Shown here piece by piece: positions 3,265 through 53,117 of a stretch of DNA of 64,000 nucleotides (the first letter of the stretch is position 1; each line of letters starts with the position of its first letter). The notes beneath the pieces are model-generated. The model searched no databases. It was not told the origin of the DNA and saw nothing but the letters and a program-made list of their open reading frames with translations. The stretch comes from Isoetes taiwanensis (Eukaryota; Streptophyta; Lycopodiopsida; Isoetales; Isoetaceae), in NCBI GenBank assembly GCA_021234155.1, contig JAJEKV010000017.1, positions 17,370,372-17,434,371 on the forward strand, in the 5' to 3' direction. A program made the position numbers and the translations under genes.

Positions 3265-4262
3265 GCGACTAGGAAGAGGAACGCGTCATCTGCATATTTA
3301 TTGCAAACCTCTTATGTGCCATCTTCCATTGCAAGACCACAAAGAAGTCCCTCTGTGGTTGCAATGGTGAATAATTGCGACAACACCTCTGCGATAATTG
3401 TGAAAAGCAGTGGTGCTAAAGGGCATCCCTGGCAAATACCACGACCGAGGGAGAAGGCATCTGACTGCTCACCATGGAACATAACAGTCGCCTGAGCAGA
3501 GACATGCAGCTTCATAATATCTGATATGAATTGTTCCCCAAATCCCAGTCTTAGCATACATCGACGCATGAATTTCCATCTAACACTGTCATAAGCCTTT
3601 GCAAAATCAAGCTTAAGGTATACAACTGGAAGGTTTTGATGACGTGCCCAATAGATTCCCTCGTAAGCAGCAGCAATATTGTTCAGAATGCATTGTTTTG
3701 AAAGAAAACCTGATTGGGTTGTTGAGATGGATTCTGCCAAGATGTCCCTCACCTGTTCTGCAAAAGTCTTGGCGAAGATCTTATATACAGATGACAATAA
3801 GGTGATGGGCCGCCAGTCTGAAATAATATGAGGATCCTTGAGGGGATGAGTGAGATAGCACCTGTGTTTAGAATTCTATCCAAAGCAGTGGACCGCCGAA
3901 AGTCACAGAAAGCATCATACACATCTGGCTCCAGCCATTCCTAATACTCCTGGAAGAACTCAATTGGCAAACCATCCAAACCTGGGCATTTTCCTCTTTT
4001 TAGTTCGAAGACTGCTGAGCCTAAATCATCAACTATCATAGCCGCCTCTATTGACATGCGCTGCTCGTCAGAGATGATGAGGGAAATCCTAGACAAACTA
4101 GCATCTCGCATTTCTGATTGAAAGGGAAGATATACATTTTTTAGTGGCACAGACTTCCATTTTAACATCCCATGGGTTAAGGCTCGCTTAATGATAGCTT
4201 CAGCACCATCATATTCACCTGCTTCATCATCACGTTTATAATGAAAATGAACATTCTTGAAT
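3265..4262 (-). mobile_element. L1-type LINE ORF2 reverse transcriptase, catalytic half
   Basis: Reading leftwards on the minus strand gives the usual order of a plant L1 RT. First comes the linker with KRGKCPGLDGLPIEFFQEY (about 3,950-4,010), then LIPKDPHIISDWRPITLLSSVYKIFAK, shown here only by its order. LKLDFAKAYDSVRW follows, then GICQGCPLAPLLF, then NKYADDA with the catalytic YADD at 3,285-3,296. The frame is broken: a stop lies before W in the EEYW region and an in-frame TAA follows EDGT just upstream of YADD. The right part (3,797-4,262) lies inside tandem copy 1; the left part is outside it, so the duplication boundary falls in the RT block 'DWRPITLL'. Confidence 0.85.
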
Positions 4263-5699
4263 TAAATGAAAATGAAAGTTACATTTCCCATGATAAGAAG
4301 CAGAATAATTTCAAGTTATTGGGATGCTACCACTTTGATAATTTCTTCCCAGAAAGTAAAATGTTATGCGCCCTTTTCACTGGCTAGAGCATCCGTCAAT
4401 CCGATAATATGTCTGTTGTACCTGTGCTCTTTGTTGGACAAATGTTTGTTCAAACAATGTTGCATAAAGTAAGTGTCATATTTTCTATCATTTGAAATGT
4501 GAAAGTGAGTTTCTTTGATGAATTTCCTCTCATCTTCATCTAATTCAGGATCATATGATTTGGAGGTGCCTACATGTGATATCTACTAAAATTGTGCACT
4601 GATCATTCTTCTAATGCTTGTGTCCTTTCTAAATGTTTCTAAATACTCTTTAAATTGCTTGGCCTGCCATCTACCCTCATAGTCTGTGATGAATTATTTA
4701 AACCACGATTCTATTAATTTGAAATTATTCCAGAATTTTGAATCCACCAGGTGTTAGTTTTAGGGTTGTTAGTTTCGGGGTCCCCGTGTGTCAGTATTGG
4801 GGGTTGTCAGTTTTAGGGTTCCCGCCTAGTTCTAATTTTTGGTTTCCCCACGAGTTTTGGTTTTAAGGTTCCCGCCCAGTGTTACTTCTACTATTAAAAT
4901 TTGGATTTCCCGCCGAGCGTTATGGGCTTCCCACAGAGTATAAATTTTGGGACTAAGTTGGTTCTTTTTTCTTCTTAAACGGGATCGTCTTTATCTGGAG
5001 CCTGGTGCCTGGCGGCCAGGCGAGTTTTATTGTTTCTCTCTTTTTTCATTCCCTGGCGCCTGGCAACCAATGCGAATTCCTGACGCCTAGCGCCGAATGA
5101 GCTCCTGGCGCCTGGCACCAATACGAACTCTTGGCACCTCAACTGGAGAGAAATCAAAGCTCTTCAGCTCTTTGCAACTTGGGGTAAGCAAATCACCTCT
5201 TTTCTTCATCTATCCAGAAATTCTTAGCTATAATGGATGATATAGATGCTTTCAGGCTTGAAATTTAGAAATGGGTATTGTCAAATCGATTTATTTTGCG
5301 AAAAGTTCCTGTATAATACTCTTGGCATTCTTTTGATTATCTGCTTCCATATTATATGGCATGCTTTGATCAATCTTAAACCAGATTCTTTGGAAATTGA
5401 AGCCTTAAAATTCTATTTTTTATTCCAAAGATCCACAAAATCAGGTGTGAAAGACGCATTTTTATACCATTTTCAAAAAAATGAAATGTGGAATAATTTC
5501 AAATTAACGGAATCGTGGTTTTTAACACTTTTCTAGCATTCTGAAAAATCTTAGCAACACTTATAGTCTTGTAAACCTAGTTTTTTTATTGATCTTATAA
5601 CTCCCTTGTCATTAGGTTCTTCTACAACTTCATAATACAACAAATACAAAATTTAAACCTGAAGCTACATGATAATGACATGCAATAAAAGCTTTGCCT
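4263..5699. other. Non-coding interval with degenerate GC-containing repeats
   Basis: I find no protein-coding family here. From about 4,740 to 4,960 there is a degenerate run of phrases built on GTTTTAGGGTTCCCGCC, containing telomere-like TTTAGGG words but not a telomeric array. The 4,990-5,130 segment is a short minisatellite. The rest is AT-rich and is repeated at 26.39-27.8 kb. Confidence 0.5.
4990..5130. repeat. Degenerate ~26 bp GGCGCC-rich minisatellite
   Basis: Imperfect units of about 26 bp contain CTGGCGCCTGGC or a variant followed by an 'AATGCGAA' or 'AATACGAA' type tail. At least three consecutive units are visible from 5,053 to 5,130, with looser copies before them. The corresponding site in copy 2 (about 27,120-27,245) has CTGG and CCTGG words altered to CGG-like words, so its repeat structure is blurred. 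Confidence 0.6.
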
Positions 5700-7903
5700 T
5701 ATTATACCCCCCCGCCGCCTCGGGGACATCAACATTTCTCACAGAATCGGTGGTTTGATGCGGAGTGTAAAGAACGCAAGCGCCAGCTCCGTCACATTCT
5801 GGATCCAGGTACTCGCTTGCAGGCCACCACACAGTACCGTGCTCATCTGAAGGACACAAAGGCGCGGTACCTTGCCAGGCATCAGGGGGAGATGTTCGGC
5901 CTGCTGGACACTCATCCTCGAACCTTTTGGCACAGAGTGCTTCGAAGGCCAGCCCAGTTTATCACACCCGAAAGCGGGGGAACAAGATTTTGCAAAGAAG
6001 ACTCTATGACCCACCGGGGACGCCAGACGTCGCCCATACCCCCACATGATGGCCCCCCATTGGTTCTCGCGAGGAGGAGGATGTTGTGGAGGGCCCGCAA
6101 TGGTCGGCTAATGGGAAGGCAACCGACCTCGATGGTATGCGTGCCGAAGTTACTCAAATGGGCAGGGCAGCCACTGGTGCCAATCCTCACTACCCTGTTC
6201 AACAGAGCATTGCAGGAAGGTTTCCCCCGACAATGGACCACAAGCAGGGTTGTCCCCATTCACAAGGCGGGTGACCCACACTGTCCGGCCAATTACCGGA
6301 CGATCATGGTCGGGATTCAAGATTTGCCAAACCATTGGTCGGCATTCTCGAAAGCAGAAGATTGACCCACCGGGCAGAGGCGCCAGATGTGCGAGCCCTC
6401 ACACAAGCAGGCTTTACACCCCGCCACTCAATGATTGACCATATCTTTACACTGCGGGCACTGATTGAAGACAGCCGAAACCATCGGCAGGACTTGTATT
6501 ACTGCTTTGTGGACTTCGCGAAGGCTTTTGATACGGTCCCCCGGGAAAAGCTATGGGCTAGACTGTGTCAACTGGGGATGCCACTGCCTGTGCAGAATGC
6601 CATATACAGGCTATATGAGAGTTGTTTTGGCAGGATGCAGCCGACGGGCCAAGCATTCACCAGTAGTATCGGGGTCCGGCAGGGCTGCCCCCTCTCACCA
6701 ACACTTTTTGGCCTCTACATTGACCCGGTTAGAGCCCCGGCTTATCGAGCATGGGGGATGACATACGACTTTTGCACTGTGTCATCCGCCCGGCTCATCT
6801 ATGCGAACGATGTTGACCGTCTGGCCCACACCCCAAAAGCTATGCAGTCTCATCTAGATGCCCTAGACACATTCTGCCAGGCTACAGACATGCGCGTGAA
6901 TCTGGCCAAGACCAGGGTGGTTCTCATATCCTCTTCACACCACCCCACGCCTCCTGCACTCATATATCGGGGGATACTGCGGAGGTCACGCCCACCTACA
7001 AGTACCTAGGGGTGGAGTTCTCCTCGCCTGCTGGGAGGCGCCCATCAAAACTGTGTGTGACAACAGTGCCGAAAGCGCTTTTATGCCATGCGCGGAACAA
7101 GAGTCACTAGGCGTAGCTCTATGATTGGGGCCATCGGGCCACATCTGTTTGGGCGCCGGGTCGAGGCCTGCCCTTCAGACGGGTCGAGGTTTGGGGCCCG
7201 ATCGTCTCTTTGGCGAACTGGAATGACTTGGAGCAAAGGTGGGCATGAGTAAGGCATTTTTGGCACGATCGCTGGTTCGCCTGATGGAACGCCTATTTTC
7301 AGAAAGTGGGAGCATATGTGTGTGCTCTACCGCGACGTGGACACAGAGGCCGATCGCGTGGGCGGCATGGGATGCACGGGACGCTTGCTTCCTTGGCAAG
7401 CTCGGGATCCCGGCGTTCTAGAGCAGTGTCAAGACGGCCCATTACAAGGAGCACATCAACCCCGTTGGCGGGGCCCCGCAGCTCTACCTGCGTTCCAACC
7501 GCCCCGAAAAGCCGCCAGCTTGAGTCATTGCCTCCATTCGCACGTGTGCCCACCATCTTCGCGACGAGGCGGGCGGGTGGATTGGGGAGCCCCGCCAGAT
7601 GTGCTCTGTCAAGTCTTTGTCCGACGGGTGCCATTGAGGATGAGTCTCACACTTTCGAGTTGCCCAAAGATTCACCGATCCGGGCGAGATCGTTCCCTTT
7701 AGTACCTACCGGACTTGCCCTCGTGATTTGCCGATGAACACACCGCCAAGATCGCCCTTGGGGGGTGACATTCAGAGGTACTTGGATCTGCGAGCCCACC
7801 TTTGCCCCCGCCTGGCTGCCCGCTGATCAGGCACTACGAATACGGTACATGAGTGTATATATTTGTGTGGTTTTCGTATATTGGAACAGTTTGTCAGCAG
7901 GCT

Positions 7904-20487: not shown

Positions 20488-20740
20488 TCATAGTTGCACT
20501 TCTTCGATCCAATCGACAACATACTCAAGTACTCGAAACCTATGGGTTGTGTACTCCACGTTTGGTATACCACGAAGAATTGTAAGCGATAGAGACTTTA
20601 AGTTCACGGTGATTTTTAAAAAGATTTCATGAAGGGGTTGGGAGTAAGCCTCATTATGGACAATGGAAATCACCTCCAAACTGATGGATAAACAGAATGA
20701 ATTAACTAGATCCTGGAGGTATATTAAGAAGTTTTGCACT
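20488..20740 (+). mobile_element. Ty3/gypsy integrase relic
   Basis: The plus strand encodes STFGIPRRIVSDRDFKFT (about 20,550-20,610), the integrase core block 'hGiP.sivSDRD.rFts'. One frame later come DFMKGLG and HLQTDG.TE.IN.ILE, the 'FHPQTDGQTERvNq.LE' block that carries the catalytic glutamate region. At least one frameshift and several stops break it. Copy 2 has the same relic at 42,746-42,998 with the same breaks, so the decay predates the duplication. No flanking LTRs were found. Confidence 0.75.
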
Positions 20741-21640
20741 AGGGAACCCACCGATAAGAGAGGGTTTCTGTTCTTGCTATTTTTTTTTCTGCTTCTTCCA
20801 GCGCTTGCATTCATGCATTGATTCTTCCTCTAACAGCGATTCTTCTTCCAGCAACTATTATCTTCTTCTTTCTGCCTCTATTTTTTTGCACCTGAGATTT
20901 TTCTTTGCTCTCTTCTTATTCTTGCAGGCTGATGCTTGTAGGCCGATTCTTGCTCAAAAGGTATGATCAATGATCAAACTCAGGCCTTAGCAGGGAGCAA
21001 CATTGCATATTAAAAGATAGATTAGAGCACTGCCGCAACACCACAGGGTTCTTCCCCTGTTTTCACTTCCTTTTTCCTCTGTTCTTCCAGCTGAGTCGAT
21101 TCTGGAGGAGCTCCAGCTAACTAAAAGCAGTCGATTTCTGCTTCAAACAGGTTAGCTCCTCTTTTGGAGTGTCAATTATTACTTTAAATGCTTGATCATT
21201 GCAGCAGAGCTTAGATGCAGCCGCAGAGATGCCTCCATCTGCCATGGCATTCTTAGCTTCACCCTATGCTTTGAAGCCCCACTTTCGATGTCAAGATCAA
21301 TCTCCTTGAATTTTTTGCAGCCCGCCTCCTATTACCAAGATTATTAAAAAAAGATCAAGATGTGCAACAAACAAGACATGTAGATCCGATGCTTGAGGAG
21401 ACGCATGACAAAAAACCAATAGCCTCAAAGGCCAGAATTGCAGAGCCAATTCTTGCAAAAAATGAGATGATTGCCGACCAAGTTGATTTCATCCAGGCGT
21501 CCAGAATCTTCTCGAGGTCTCTTAGCCTGAGCTTTTAATAGCCTATATTACCTAAAATAAAAATACACCAAAACCCACAGGAATTTTGACCTCCCAGTGA
21601 TTAGCAGGGTTGCCTAACCCCCCTGCCCACTTTCCCTGCG
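20741..21640. other. No recognised gene; CT-rich non-coding sequence
   Basis: Pyrimidine-rich stretches with many TTCTTCC and TGCAG words occur here. The sequence is virtually the same at 43.0-43.9 kb, including CAG/CTG sites, so both copies are clean here. It resembles leader or intron sequence, but I can define no exon. Confidence 0.45.
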
Positions 21641-42745: not shown

Positions 42746-42998
42746 TCATAGTTGCACTTCTTCGATCCAATCGACAACATACTCAAGTACTCGAAACCTA
42801 TGGGTTGTGTACTCCACGTTTGGTATACCACGAAGAATTGTAAGCGATAGAGACTTTAAGTTCACGGTGATTTTTAAAAAGATTTCATGAAGGGGTTGGG
42901 AGTAAGCCTCATTATGGACAATGGAAATCACCTCCAAACTGATGGATAAACAGAATGAATTAACTAGATCCTGGAGGTATATTAAGAAGTTTTGCACT
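42746..42998 (+). mobile_element. Ty3/gypsy integrase relic (copy 2)
   Basis: This is the same as 20,488-20,740, with the FGIPRRIVSDRD block and, one frame later, the HLQTDG block. The shared frameshift shows that the relic was already broken before the duplication. Confidence 0.75.
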
Positions 42999-44082
42999 AG
43001 GGAACCCACCGATAAGAGAGGGTTTCTGTTCTTGCTATTTTTTTTTCTGCTTCTTCCAGCGCTTGCATTCATGCATTGATTCTTCCTCTAACAGCGATTC
43101 TTCTTCCAGCAACTATTATCTTCTTCTTTCTGCCTCTATTTTTTTTGCACCTGAGATTTTTCTTTGCTCTCTTCTTATTCTTGCAGGCTGATGCTTGTAG
43201 GCCGATTCTTGCTCAAAAGGTATGATCAATGATCAAACTCAGGCCTTAGCAGGGAGCAACATTGCATATTAAAAGATAGATTAGAGCACTGCCGCAACAC
43301 CACAGGGTTCTTCCCCTGTTTTCACTTCCTTTTTCCTCTGTTCTTCCAGCTGAGTCGATTCTGGAGGAGCTCCAGCTAACTAAAAGCAGTCGATTTCTGC
43401 TTCAAACAGGTTAGCTCCTCTTTTGGAGTGTCAATTATTACTTTAAATGCTTGATCATTGCAGCAGAGCTTAGATGCAGCCGCAGAGATGCCTCCATCTG
43501 CCATGGCATTCTTAGCTTCACCCTATGCTTTGAAGCCCCACTTTCGATGTCAAGATCAATCTCCTTGAATTTTTTGCAGCCCGCCTCCTATTACCAAGAT
43601 TATTAAAAAAAGATCAAGATGTGCAACAAACAAGACATGTAGATCCGATGCTTGAGGAGACGCATGACAAAAAACCAATAGCCTCAAAGGCCAGAATTGC
43701 AGAGCCAATTCTTGCAAAAAATGAGATGATTGCCGACCAAGTTGATTTCATCCAGGCGTCCAGAATCTTCTCGAGGTCTCTTAGCCTGAGCTTTTAATAG
43801 CCTATATTACCTAAAATAAAAATACACCAAAACCCACAGGAATTTTGACCTCCCAGTGATTAGCAGGGTTGCCTAACCCCCCCTGCCCACTTTCCTGCGT
43901 TTCTAGCTATGCCACGTGTCGTGACACATCAGCAAAAATTATTGCAGGCCGTTGGATCTCCAATATTTCGCATCGACGGCCTGTAAAATTAGAAAATACC
44001 CTGAAAATCTGGTTGCCTTCCTTTGCGCAGCTGAATTCCCTCCTCCGACCTTTCCTCCTCTGCTTCTGCTTTCTCGAATTCG

Positions 44083-51560: not shown

Positions 51561-52411
51561 TTTGAGTCCATGTCACAGGTCCCTTGTGTCTATCTTGATT
51601 TTTTCTTGATAATAGATTGTCATCCTTAAATGTTATTTATGTATTTATTTTCTTTGAAGAACAGTCTGCGGCTTCTATTCTTTCAATGTTCCAGTTACTA
51701 CTTTCTACAGAATTGGCTCGAAGGATGAGGTATTTGTTTAATGTTTGTAAATAAATAATGTGCTTGCTTTTGTTCTTCTTTTTGTAATGCACTGGATTGT
51801 TGGGCTGAATGAGTTGAAACAATAAAGATGAATAGAATTTTAATGAACTTGTGAGGGAGAGCAGGGATTATAAAAGCATCTTCAATATCAATTCGCATGA
51901 CTCATGATCTTGTCATGATGAACGGATATTTTCAAAGCGAACCTTGAAAGCGGAGTGAAAAGTGATTTTGTTTCAGTGGTCCGATGGCCAAACTTTTAAA
52001 TGCACGTTGTGGCTTAGAAATTATCAGGAAAAAATCATGGTTCTCTCTTTTGCAACGTCCTATAGGAGCTTAAAACCTTATGTTTGTCTTCTAGAAGCAG
52101 TTGAGTTGAACACTTTGATAAAGTATATGATGGATTTACATTGGCAGAGAGTGGAATGCCTTGCATTTATGTTCCTTCTAGGACTTTTCCCATTTCACAA
52201 AAGAGAAACCCAGCTAAGATTTTTCCAATTTATACGGGCAACCCTCCAAGGGTCCCGCGACCGGCGGGTAGAATCGTCGACCCATTTTCCATCCGCCACA
52301 AAATGGCAAGTCTTGAAGCTTACTGCGTGTGACACGTTGGCGGAATCATCTTTGCCACTTTCCATTCCGGAGGCAGAACCAGCGGGCCAGTTGACATTTT
52401 GTTGTTCCGAA
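51561..52411. other. Upstream flank of the TRIM and SDH6
   Basis: An open plus-strand stretch at 52,141-52,332 (IYVPSRTFPISQKRNPAKIFPIY) looks coding-like but is unassigned. The last ~100 bp before 52,412 would have been the distal promoter of SDH6 before the TRIM inserted. It ends in the target-site copy CCGAA at 52,407-52,411. Confidence 0.4.
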
Positions 52412-52588
52412 TGTTGAGAAATGAGCCTCCTATGATTGGGTGGACAGGCTGGGGATCGAACCCAGGACCTCTTGCTTGCAAGCCAAGTACTCTACCACTG
52501 AGCTACCGGCCCATTGATGGGCTTTCGGCACTCTTCCACTGAGCCATTCTTCATGTGTGCCCATTACACATACTCCAACATTCCAACA
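52412..52588 (-). repeat. TRIM 3' LTR (177 bp)
   Basis: This is the downstream LTR in element orientation. It begins TGTTGAGAAATGAGCCTCC on the plus strand and ends TTCCAACA. Contents: tRNA-Ala-like gene at 52,441-52,512. Confidence 0.92.
52441..52512 (-). tRNA. tRNA-Ala(TGC)-like gene inside LTR
   Basis: A full 72 nt cloverleaf can be drawn. The acceptor GGGCCGG pairs with CCTGTCC except at 5:68, and position 3:70 is G-U, the major alanine identity element. The D arm is GCTC-AGTGGTA-GAGT, the anticodon loop is CTTGCAA (anticodon TGC) with one 31:39 mismatch, the T arm is CTGGG-TTCGATC-CCCAG, and the discriminator is A. The A box TAGCTCAGTGGT and B box GGTTCGATCCC match Pol III promoter consensus. 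No T run follows the 3' end, so a Pol III transcript would read on. The two mismatches suggest a promoter role rather than a working tRNA. Confidence 0.8.
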
Positions 52589-52600
52589 TTCCCCCTTAAT
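52589..52600 (-). promoter_or_regulatory. Polypurine tract of the TRIM
   Basis: On the minus strand ATTAAGGGGGAA directly precedes the 3' LTR, the expected place and composition for the plus-strand DNA primer. Confidence 0.75.
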
Positions 52601-52778
52601 GGGCACACCAATCCATTCCAGCCTTCACCACAATCCACATGCTCCCCTCCTCGGGCAACTCCACCCTTCACCACTTCCACGGGGGTTGGGCTTTCCACTG
52701 GCCAAGCTTTGCTCATTCTCACCCCTACACCACTGGGGACTATCCCGATGCGGTTAAGCACCTTCCACTTGGGACCAT

Positions 52779-52791
52779 GGCTCTGATACCA
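52779..52791 (-). promoter_or_regulatory. Primer-binding site of the TRIM (tRNA-iMet type)
   Basis: The minus strand reads TGGTATCAGAGCC immediately after the 5' LTR. This is the standard initiator-Met tRNA complement used by many plant LTR elements. It fixes the element's orientation as minus. Confidence 0.92.
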
Positions 52792-52968
52792 TGTTGAGAA
52801 ATGAGATCTCTATGATTGGGTGGACAGGCTGGGGATCGAACCCAGGACCTCTTGCTTGCAAGCCAAGTACTCTACCACTGAGCTACCGGCCCATTGATGG
52901 GCTTTTGGCACTCTTCCACTGAGCCATTCTTCATGTGTGCCCATTACACATACTCCAACATTCCAACA
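52792..52968 (-). repeat. TRIM 5' LTR (177 bp)
   Basis: This is the upstream LTR in element orientation. It starts TGTTGAGAAATGAGATCTC on the plus strand and ends TTCCAACA. It is the same length as its partner. Confidence 0.92.
52821..52892 (-). tRNA. tRNA-Ala(TGC)-like gene inside LTR (second copy)
   Basis: The 72 nt are the same as at 52,441-52,512, including the G3-U70 pair, TGC anticodon, A and B boxes and the two mismatches. Transcription runs away from SDH6, toward the TRIM interior. It lies about 225 bp from the SDH6 start codon. Confidence 0.8.
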
Positions 52969-53117
52969 CCGAACTCATTTTCTCGTAAAGCCCAAACAGT
53001 TGTATTGTTTCGAAGTCATTTTGCCGTAAAGGCGAAACAGTCGTAAATAATGTAAACGACGGTCCGTATTGTAATAAGAATACAGGTCATTTCTAACATT
53101 GAGAATTGATGACCTAG

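Follow-up and report, generated by a model that had tools for sequence, protein, structure and literature searches.

A compact retrotransposon with a tRNA-like gene in each LTR

The window analysed here is a 64,000-nucleotide stretch of the Isoetes taiwanensis genome (contig JAJEKV010000017.1, positions 17,370,372 to 17,434,371). It contains, at 52412–52968, a complete 557 bp TRIM retrotransposon that reads in the sense of the minus strand (Table 1). The parts listed in the initial annotation, namely 177 bp LTRs, a CCGAA target-site duplication (TSD), an initiator-Met primer-binding site (PBS) and a polypurine tract (PPT), are all present in the sequence; the tRNA assigned to the PBS TGGTATCAGAGCCA is presumably the initiator-Met tRNA (iMet). 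In the family alignment, 5 of the 177 positions differ between the two LTRs, and the open reading frame list of the window has no frame of at least 110 aa inside the element. Elsewhere in the window, the same 113-aa open frame occurs twice (20488–20829 and 42746–43087, both on the minus strand), probably as two copies of a mobile element, and two frames look by eye like LINE-type reverse transcriptase (3312–3875, minus strand; 5679–7009, plus strand).

We found that both LTRs carry a tRNA-like gene in the sense of the element. Each scored 62.3 bits against Rfam RF00005 (E = 5e-13; gathering score 29), and ARAGORN, run on the whole window, called tRNA-Ala(TGC) twice and no further tRNA. Boxes A and B are present, with limits that we take to be the canonical ones. 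The annotated tRNA-Ala gene in each LTR is upheld by these matches, but its fold is imperfect, with non-standard pairs or mismatches at canonical positions 5-68 and 31-39. An Rfam scan of 52300–53100 at E values up to 1 returned the two tRNAs and a weak lncRNA match (E = 0.12), and no 5S rRNA. We also observed a second A-box-like stretch upstream of each tRNA, which by eye is identical to the tRNA's own box-A stretch at 14 of 16 positions and differs among copies at LTR positions 50, 55 and 60.

Table 1. Features of the element, in window coordinates
Feature	Position	Strand	Basis
TSD CCGAA, left copy	52407..52411		sequence
3' LTR, 177 bp	52412..52588	-	sequence/alignment
tRNA-Ala(UGC)-like gene of 3' LTR, 72 nt	52441..52512	-	Rfam RF00005 62.3 bits; ARAGORN
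Box B GGTTCGATCCC, tRNA of 3' LTR	52452..52462	-	sequence; canonical box limits
Box A TAGCTCAGTGG, tRNA of 3' LTR	52495..52505	-	sequence; canonical box limits
PPT AAGGGGGAA	52589..52597	-	sequence
Internal domain, non-coding, 203 bp between LTRs	52589..52791	-	sequence
PBS TGGTATCAGAGCCA, initiator-Met type	52778..52791	-	sequence
5' LTR, 177 bp	52792..52968	-	sequence/alignment
tRNA-Ala(UGC)-like gene of 5' LTR, 72 nt	52821..52892	-	Rfam RF00005 62.3 bits; ARAGORN
Box B, tRNA of 5' LTR	52832..52842	-	sequence; canonical box limits
Box A, tRNA of 5' LTR	52875..52885	-	sequence; canonical box limits
Second A-box-like stretch CTCAGTGGAAGAGTGC, upstream of LTR tRNA	52908..52923 (5' LTR), 52528..52543 (3' LTR)	-	sequence
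TSD CCGAA, right copy	52969..52973		sequence

The initial annotation knew of no established family with this arrangement. It had been established as Helenus, the TRIMs with a tRNA in the LTR published in 2024 by Kojima (PMC10886601). The Isoetes element has the features that define Helenus in the passages of that article on structure: a length below about 1 kb, no protein genes, a tRNA-derived segment with an A and a B box in each LTR, a PBS and a PPT adjoining the LTRs, and the 5-bp TSD seen in plants. We consider it very probable that this is a Helenus-type TRIM, non-coding and about 550 bp long, with a tRNA-derived segment in the place of a Pol II promoter and with putative transcription by Pol III and packaging and copying by a Copia element.

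Copies of the family across the genome

A search of the Isoetes genome with the window element, in which the best 40 of 377 candidates were scored, returned at least 46 matches at 82–100% identity, which makes the family multi-copy. A pattern running from box B to the PBS had 83 matches in the genome, against 0 for a control pattern; 81 of the matches were judged by eye to belong to the family. L050, one of the two unrelated matches, was rejected as a member, as no tRNA was called there. Exact 5-bp TSDs surround the outermost LTRs in 26 of the 40 loci read, and the two LTRs are identical in 7 of the 40, suggesting that the family has recently been active. Five of the 40 have three or more LTRs; the outer 5-mers are equal in four (L022, L027, L030 and L032) and unequal in one (L014). 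The internal domain is about 187 bp in other copies (over a 197-base query), compared with 203 bp in the window copy, and the family includes a variant with a longer internal domain. In one locus (L141), a Helenus LTR lacks the segment that separates the second A-box-like sequence from the tRNA.

The initial annotation had named family members lacking the tRNA as one case against it; no subfamily of that kind was seen. The 100 loci examined gave 165 unique LTR copies (L050 gave none), 136 of them full-span. In 133 of these 136 the tRNA match is 60 nt or longer, and in the other three it is 57, 30 and 24 nt long. Because this count required the full LTR span, loci fetched by the internal domain alone provide a fairer check of retention. 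All eight such loci have tRNA sequence in the 3' LTR, partial in L135, L136 and L137, so that neither these loci nor the 136 full-span copies revealed a tRNA-less subfamily. Among LTRs reached via the internal domain, the tRNA is present in 71 of 76 5' LTRs (3 truncated before the tRNA, 2 without a long match) and in 58 of 67 3' LTRs (7 truncated, 2 without a long match). With 62.3 bits in both LTRs of the window element and the same segment in 133 of 136 full-span copies, the idea of a chance tRNA-like match in a repeat is refuted, and we give it negligible probability.

Of 147 family LTRs that span the tRNA, ARAGORN called tRNA-Ala(TGC) in 107 and no tRNA in 31; its call in 8 was a different or an undefined tRNA. 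The family majority has G3-U70 and the UGC anticodon, and it retains both stem mismatches (5-68 and 31-39).

Origin of the LTR tRNA

The evidence gives only partial support to the proposal that a tRNA gene was captured by the element. When the LTR tRNA was compared with 33 distinct tRNAs, by no means a complete set, its three closest matches were family copies, and the closest non-family tRNA was 74% identical. A direct copy of host tRNA-Ala(UGC) was rejected, given about 72% identity (54 of 75 columns) to the sampled host genes, all from one cluster contig. We also rejected a tRNA-Cys parent, as the genome contained no match to a 39-nt plant-type pattern with 3 mismatches allowed; other Cys genes are possible. 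The host tRNA-Ala pattern itself has 212 genome matches at up to 3 mismatches, tRNA-Ala(AGC) included. On contigs C926 and C232, host tRNA-Ala(TGC) genes are arranged in long clusters in which spacings of about 300 and 1250 bp recur, and the copies sampled by pattern search have an unusual T arm, GGGATCGATACCC.

In Kojima's origin model, a tRNA-derived SINE inserted once into the LTR of an older TRIM and was then copied to both ends. The second A-box-like stretch upstream of the tRNA and the want of a close native parent among the 33 tRNAs speak for this origin, but no SINE tail is visible by eye in the LTR, and if the tRNA were a mere SINE relic the deficit of inherited tRNA changes described below would not be expected; we regard it as possible, if somewhat unlikely. 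The element as a whole is not a tRNA-derived SINE, which would lack LTRs, insert by target-primed reverse transcription and have a 3' tail: it has LTRs, a PBS, a PPT and a 5-bp TSD.

Selection on the tRNA segment

The two LTRs of an element are identical at insertion, so a difference within a pair marks a change after insertion, whereas a change common to both LTRs relative to the family majority is most simply one that was inherited from before insertion. Starting from 62 LTR–internal–LTR units, we dropped 13 and retained 49 with full-span LTRs, 29 of which have an exact TSD. With 8 positions at the left LTR end and 6 at the right not counted, 72 tRNA sites were compared with 91 other LTR sites. 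In the 29 elements, changes after insertion fell evenly (34 of 72 tRNA sites and 43 of 91 sites elsewhere were variable), but inherited variation was found at 5 of 72 tRNA sites compared with 28 of 91 elsewhere. Counted as distinct changes, 5 inherited changes lie in the tRNA and 30 in the rest, against 58 and 68 post-insertion changes (Fisher p = 7e-4). The same held for the 50 tRNA sites outside boxes A and B (4 inherited changes versus 30 in the other 91 sites; 40 versus 68 post-insertion; p = 0.005).

Using all 49 units gave p = 4e-4 for the whole tRNA and p = 0.011 outside the boxes. The deficit also persisted when we removed CpG sites (p = 0.002), L094 (p = 2e-4) or elements with more than 6 differences (p = 0.011). 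No 72-nt sliding window has fewer inherited changes than the one that starts with the tRNA, which is tied by starts 78 and 81–85. The copies had been collected either for their similarity to the window copy or with the box-B-to-PBS pattern, and this may have biased the sample; the 23 elements from the window-element search alone gave p = 0.009. Inherited changes in the stems, four in all in the 29 elements, kept the pair in three cases and broke it in one, numbers too small to serve as evidence on pairing. The deficit of inherited changes supports the conclusion that the tRNA part is under selection in the element copies.

The tRNA part might be retained for its fold, for instance because RNase P and RNase Z process it, because it aids packaging or because it works as a tRNA-Ala gene, and would then be more than a Pol III promoter. 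Such a role would account for the rarity of inherited changes over the whole tRNA, also outside the boxes (4 in 50 sites against 30 in 91), and would suit both the G3-U70 and UGC anticodon of the family majority and the tRNA-Ala(TGC) calls in 107 of 147 LTRs, 31 of the 147 giving no call. Against it, the majority keeps the two stem mismatches, identity to sampled host tRNA-Ala is about 72%, and cutting the tRNA out of the 5' LTR would presumably cut the genomic RNA. Few Helenus families could encode a tRNA, according to the passages on this point in Kojima (PMC10886601). On balance, we think it unlikely that the tRNA part is kept for such a role.

Putative transcription by Pol III

The LTR of a Copia-type element of the same genome, termed Copia-A and described below, contains TATATA and AATAAA, whereas the Helenus LTR in the window lacks both. 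Of the 136 full-span copies, 3 contain TATATA or TATAAA and none contains AATAAA. Taken with the A and B boxes and the outcome of the selection test, the lack of these motifs favours transcription by Pol III, by analogy with Cassandra. Pol III would bind boxes A and B of the tRNA in the 5' LTR, start a few bases upstream of the tRNA and read through the internal domain into the 3' LTR.

Neither the window LTR nor the sense strand of the window element contains TTTT, so no Pol III terminator was identified there; 7 of the 136 full-span LTR copies do contain it. Transcripts may therefore end in flanking DNA, which would not be expected to block strand transfer through R. We did not use the missing sense-strand TTTT (21 of 22 elements) as evidence, because it is at chance level: shuffles of one copy had none in 66% of cases.

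Chimaeric copies with Copia elements

A search with the internal domain as the query, in which the best 40 of 259 candidates were scored, gave at least 41 matches; 8 of these are the loci reached by the internal domain alone, and 6 of the 8 lack a Helenus 5' LTR. The fetched loci contain 88 unique internal-domain starts. A Helenus LTR precedes 76 of them and foreign sequence 8; the other 4 are internal duplications, of which L089 has three and L099 one. In L089 (minus strand, about 1273–1611), tandem partial copies of the internal-domain start each have a PBS-like start.

The eight foreign joins lie at the edge of the PBS, and in four of them the foreign sequence is the LTR end of one of two other elements, at least one of which is Copia-type. 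In L133, L136 and L139, the internal domain comes after a Copia-A LTR end. L139 consists of a Copia-A LTR, the PBS, the internal domain and a Helenus LTR between two copies of TTCGC, a perfect 5-bp TSD, where the end of the Helenus LTR was set 2 nt beyond the BLAST match. In L133 and L136, a PPT and a Copia-A LTR precede the same junction. Upstream of its Copia-A LTR, L136 has an open frame that matches RVT_2; the corresponding frame in L133, RNase H-like by eye, had no Pfam match, and a piece fetched near the expected left end of L133 (L154) had no Copia-A LTR.

The fourth case, L083, has the Helenus internal domain and LTR between the end of a second LTR, LTR_B (plus one T), and gag-like sequence, with GCAAG adjoining both outer ends. 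Its Helenus LTR is followed by a PBS, gag-like zinc knuckles (by eye) and another LTR_B about 2 kb on; LTR_B does not start with TG, which leaves its left edge and TSD uncertain. L138 joins inside LTR_B rather than at an LTR end and has an RVT_2 match further upstream, which suggests that LTR_B, too, is probably of Copia type. In L134 the join falls within a Copia reverse transcriptase frame (RVT_2), again not at an LTR end, and no partner was identified for the junctions of L014 and L135.

Copia-A LTRs are 229–235 bp long and form, in part, same-strand pairs 2.5 to 6.1 kb apart (best 40 of 338 candidates scored). Two native copies have exact 5-bp TSDs (GGCTA and GAATG), and three Copia-A LTRs lie on one strand 3886 bp apart, resembling a tandem array (contig C1049, 10620165–10628165). 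The native Copia-A PBS, read in one copy, shares only its first 12 nt with the Helenus PBS. A pattern for the Copia-A-to-Helenus junction, allowing up to 3 mismatches, had 45 matches and its control 0; the three exact matches are L133, L136 and L139, and 28 of the 45 have the native GCTGT ending. The Copia-A PPT GAGGGGGAG occupies the same place as the Helenus PPT, with AGGGGGA common to both. The first 22 nt of the two LTRs are alike (89 of 20,000 shuffles were as good), and the last 14 nt are no closer than shuffles (7,637 of 20,000). Copia-A is our best candidate for the partner of the Isoetes Helenus family.

The joins at the PBS fit template switching with co-packaged Copia RNA. The element RNA would enter the particles of a Copia element, with initiator-Met tRNA as its primer, and that element's enzymes would copy and integrate it. 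The Helenus minus-strand cDNA, after copying the PBS, would have tRNA-primer sequence at its 3' end, so it could act as a primer at the PBS of a co-packaged Copia RNA and be extended into the LTR of that RNA, yielding a chimaera. DNA recombination between integrated copies could have produced such junctions too, possibly guided by the common 12 nt of the PBS, and in L133 and L136 the sequence read stopped short of the left end and of any TSD there. However, the two different LTRs of L139 are flanked by a perfect 5-bp TSD, and the junctions sit at the PBS edge, where minus-strand synthesis ends; we hold recombination to be very unlikely. Beyond template switching itself, a more speculative and rather improbable scheme is that a selected near-tRNA fold, with its two fixed stem mismatches, recruits Pol III while resisting tRNA-processing cuts, and that the resulting RNA is packaged with Copia RNA and exchanges templates at the common primer site.

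Comparison with known systems

The arrangement is already known, and the Isoetes family is a further Helenus-type family. In the passages of Kojima's article on host range, Helenus occurs in fungi, animals and one plant, the lycophyte Selaginella moellendorffii (PMC10886601), so that Isoetes is a second plant host and again a lycophyte. The Selaginella family Helenus-1_SMo, compared here by structure and size, has an LTR of 120 bp and an internal domain of 85 bp, against 177 and 203 bp in Isoetes. The Isoetes PBS fits the 3' end of a tRNA; within Helenus, such a PBS is described there for only several fungal families. The same article proposes the name TRIMp3 and, in the parts that treat function, holds few Helenus tRNAs to be capable of it, does not demonstrate Pol III transcription, treats the way in which TRIM dependence is maintained as not known and states that nothing points to a partner for Cassandra.

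The initial annotation had called the element analogous to Cassandra, and as a TRIM with a tRNA-like gene in each LTR it is. From what the Cassandra article describes (PMC7215508), the two have in common a Pol III gene in the LTRs, tandem LTR arrays and the string TGGTATCAGAGC, used there as the PBS of Cassandra. They differ in that the Cassandra LTR contains 5S rRNA and a terminator, whereas the Isoetes LTR contains a tRNA and the window LTR has no terminator that we could find. Ajax, as described by Kojima (PMC10886601), is likewise a TRIM with a small-RNA promoter in the LTR, but it is 5S-derived and comes from nemerteans. For plant LTR elements, Sabot and Schulman (2007, PMC1950507) proposed template switching between co-packaged RNAs, giving chimaeras that insert with a TSD. 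The switch proposed there is between R regions of closely related elements, whereas the Isoetes joins lie at the PBS and link a non-coding with a coding family.

Our literature search, which covered few subscription journals and did not extend to Repbase, found tRNA-bearing TRIMs only in Kojima 2024 (PMC10886601) and no earlier report of one in Isoetes. What is new here is Isoetes as a host, the selection test internal to the copies and the Copia chimaeras. The test supports a role of the tRNA part in the spread of the element, which had previously been inferred from box conservation, and the chimaeras provide genomic evidence of a Copia partner for a TRIM with a tRNA promoter.
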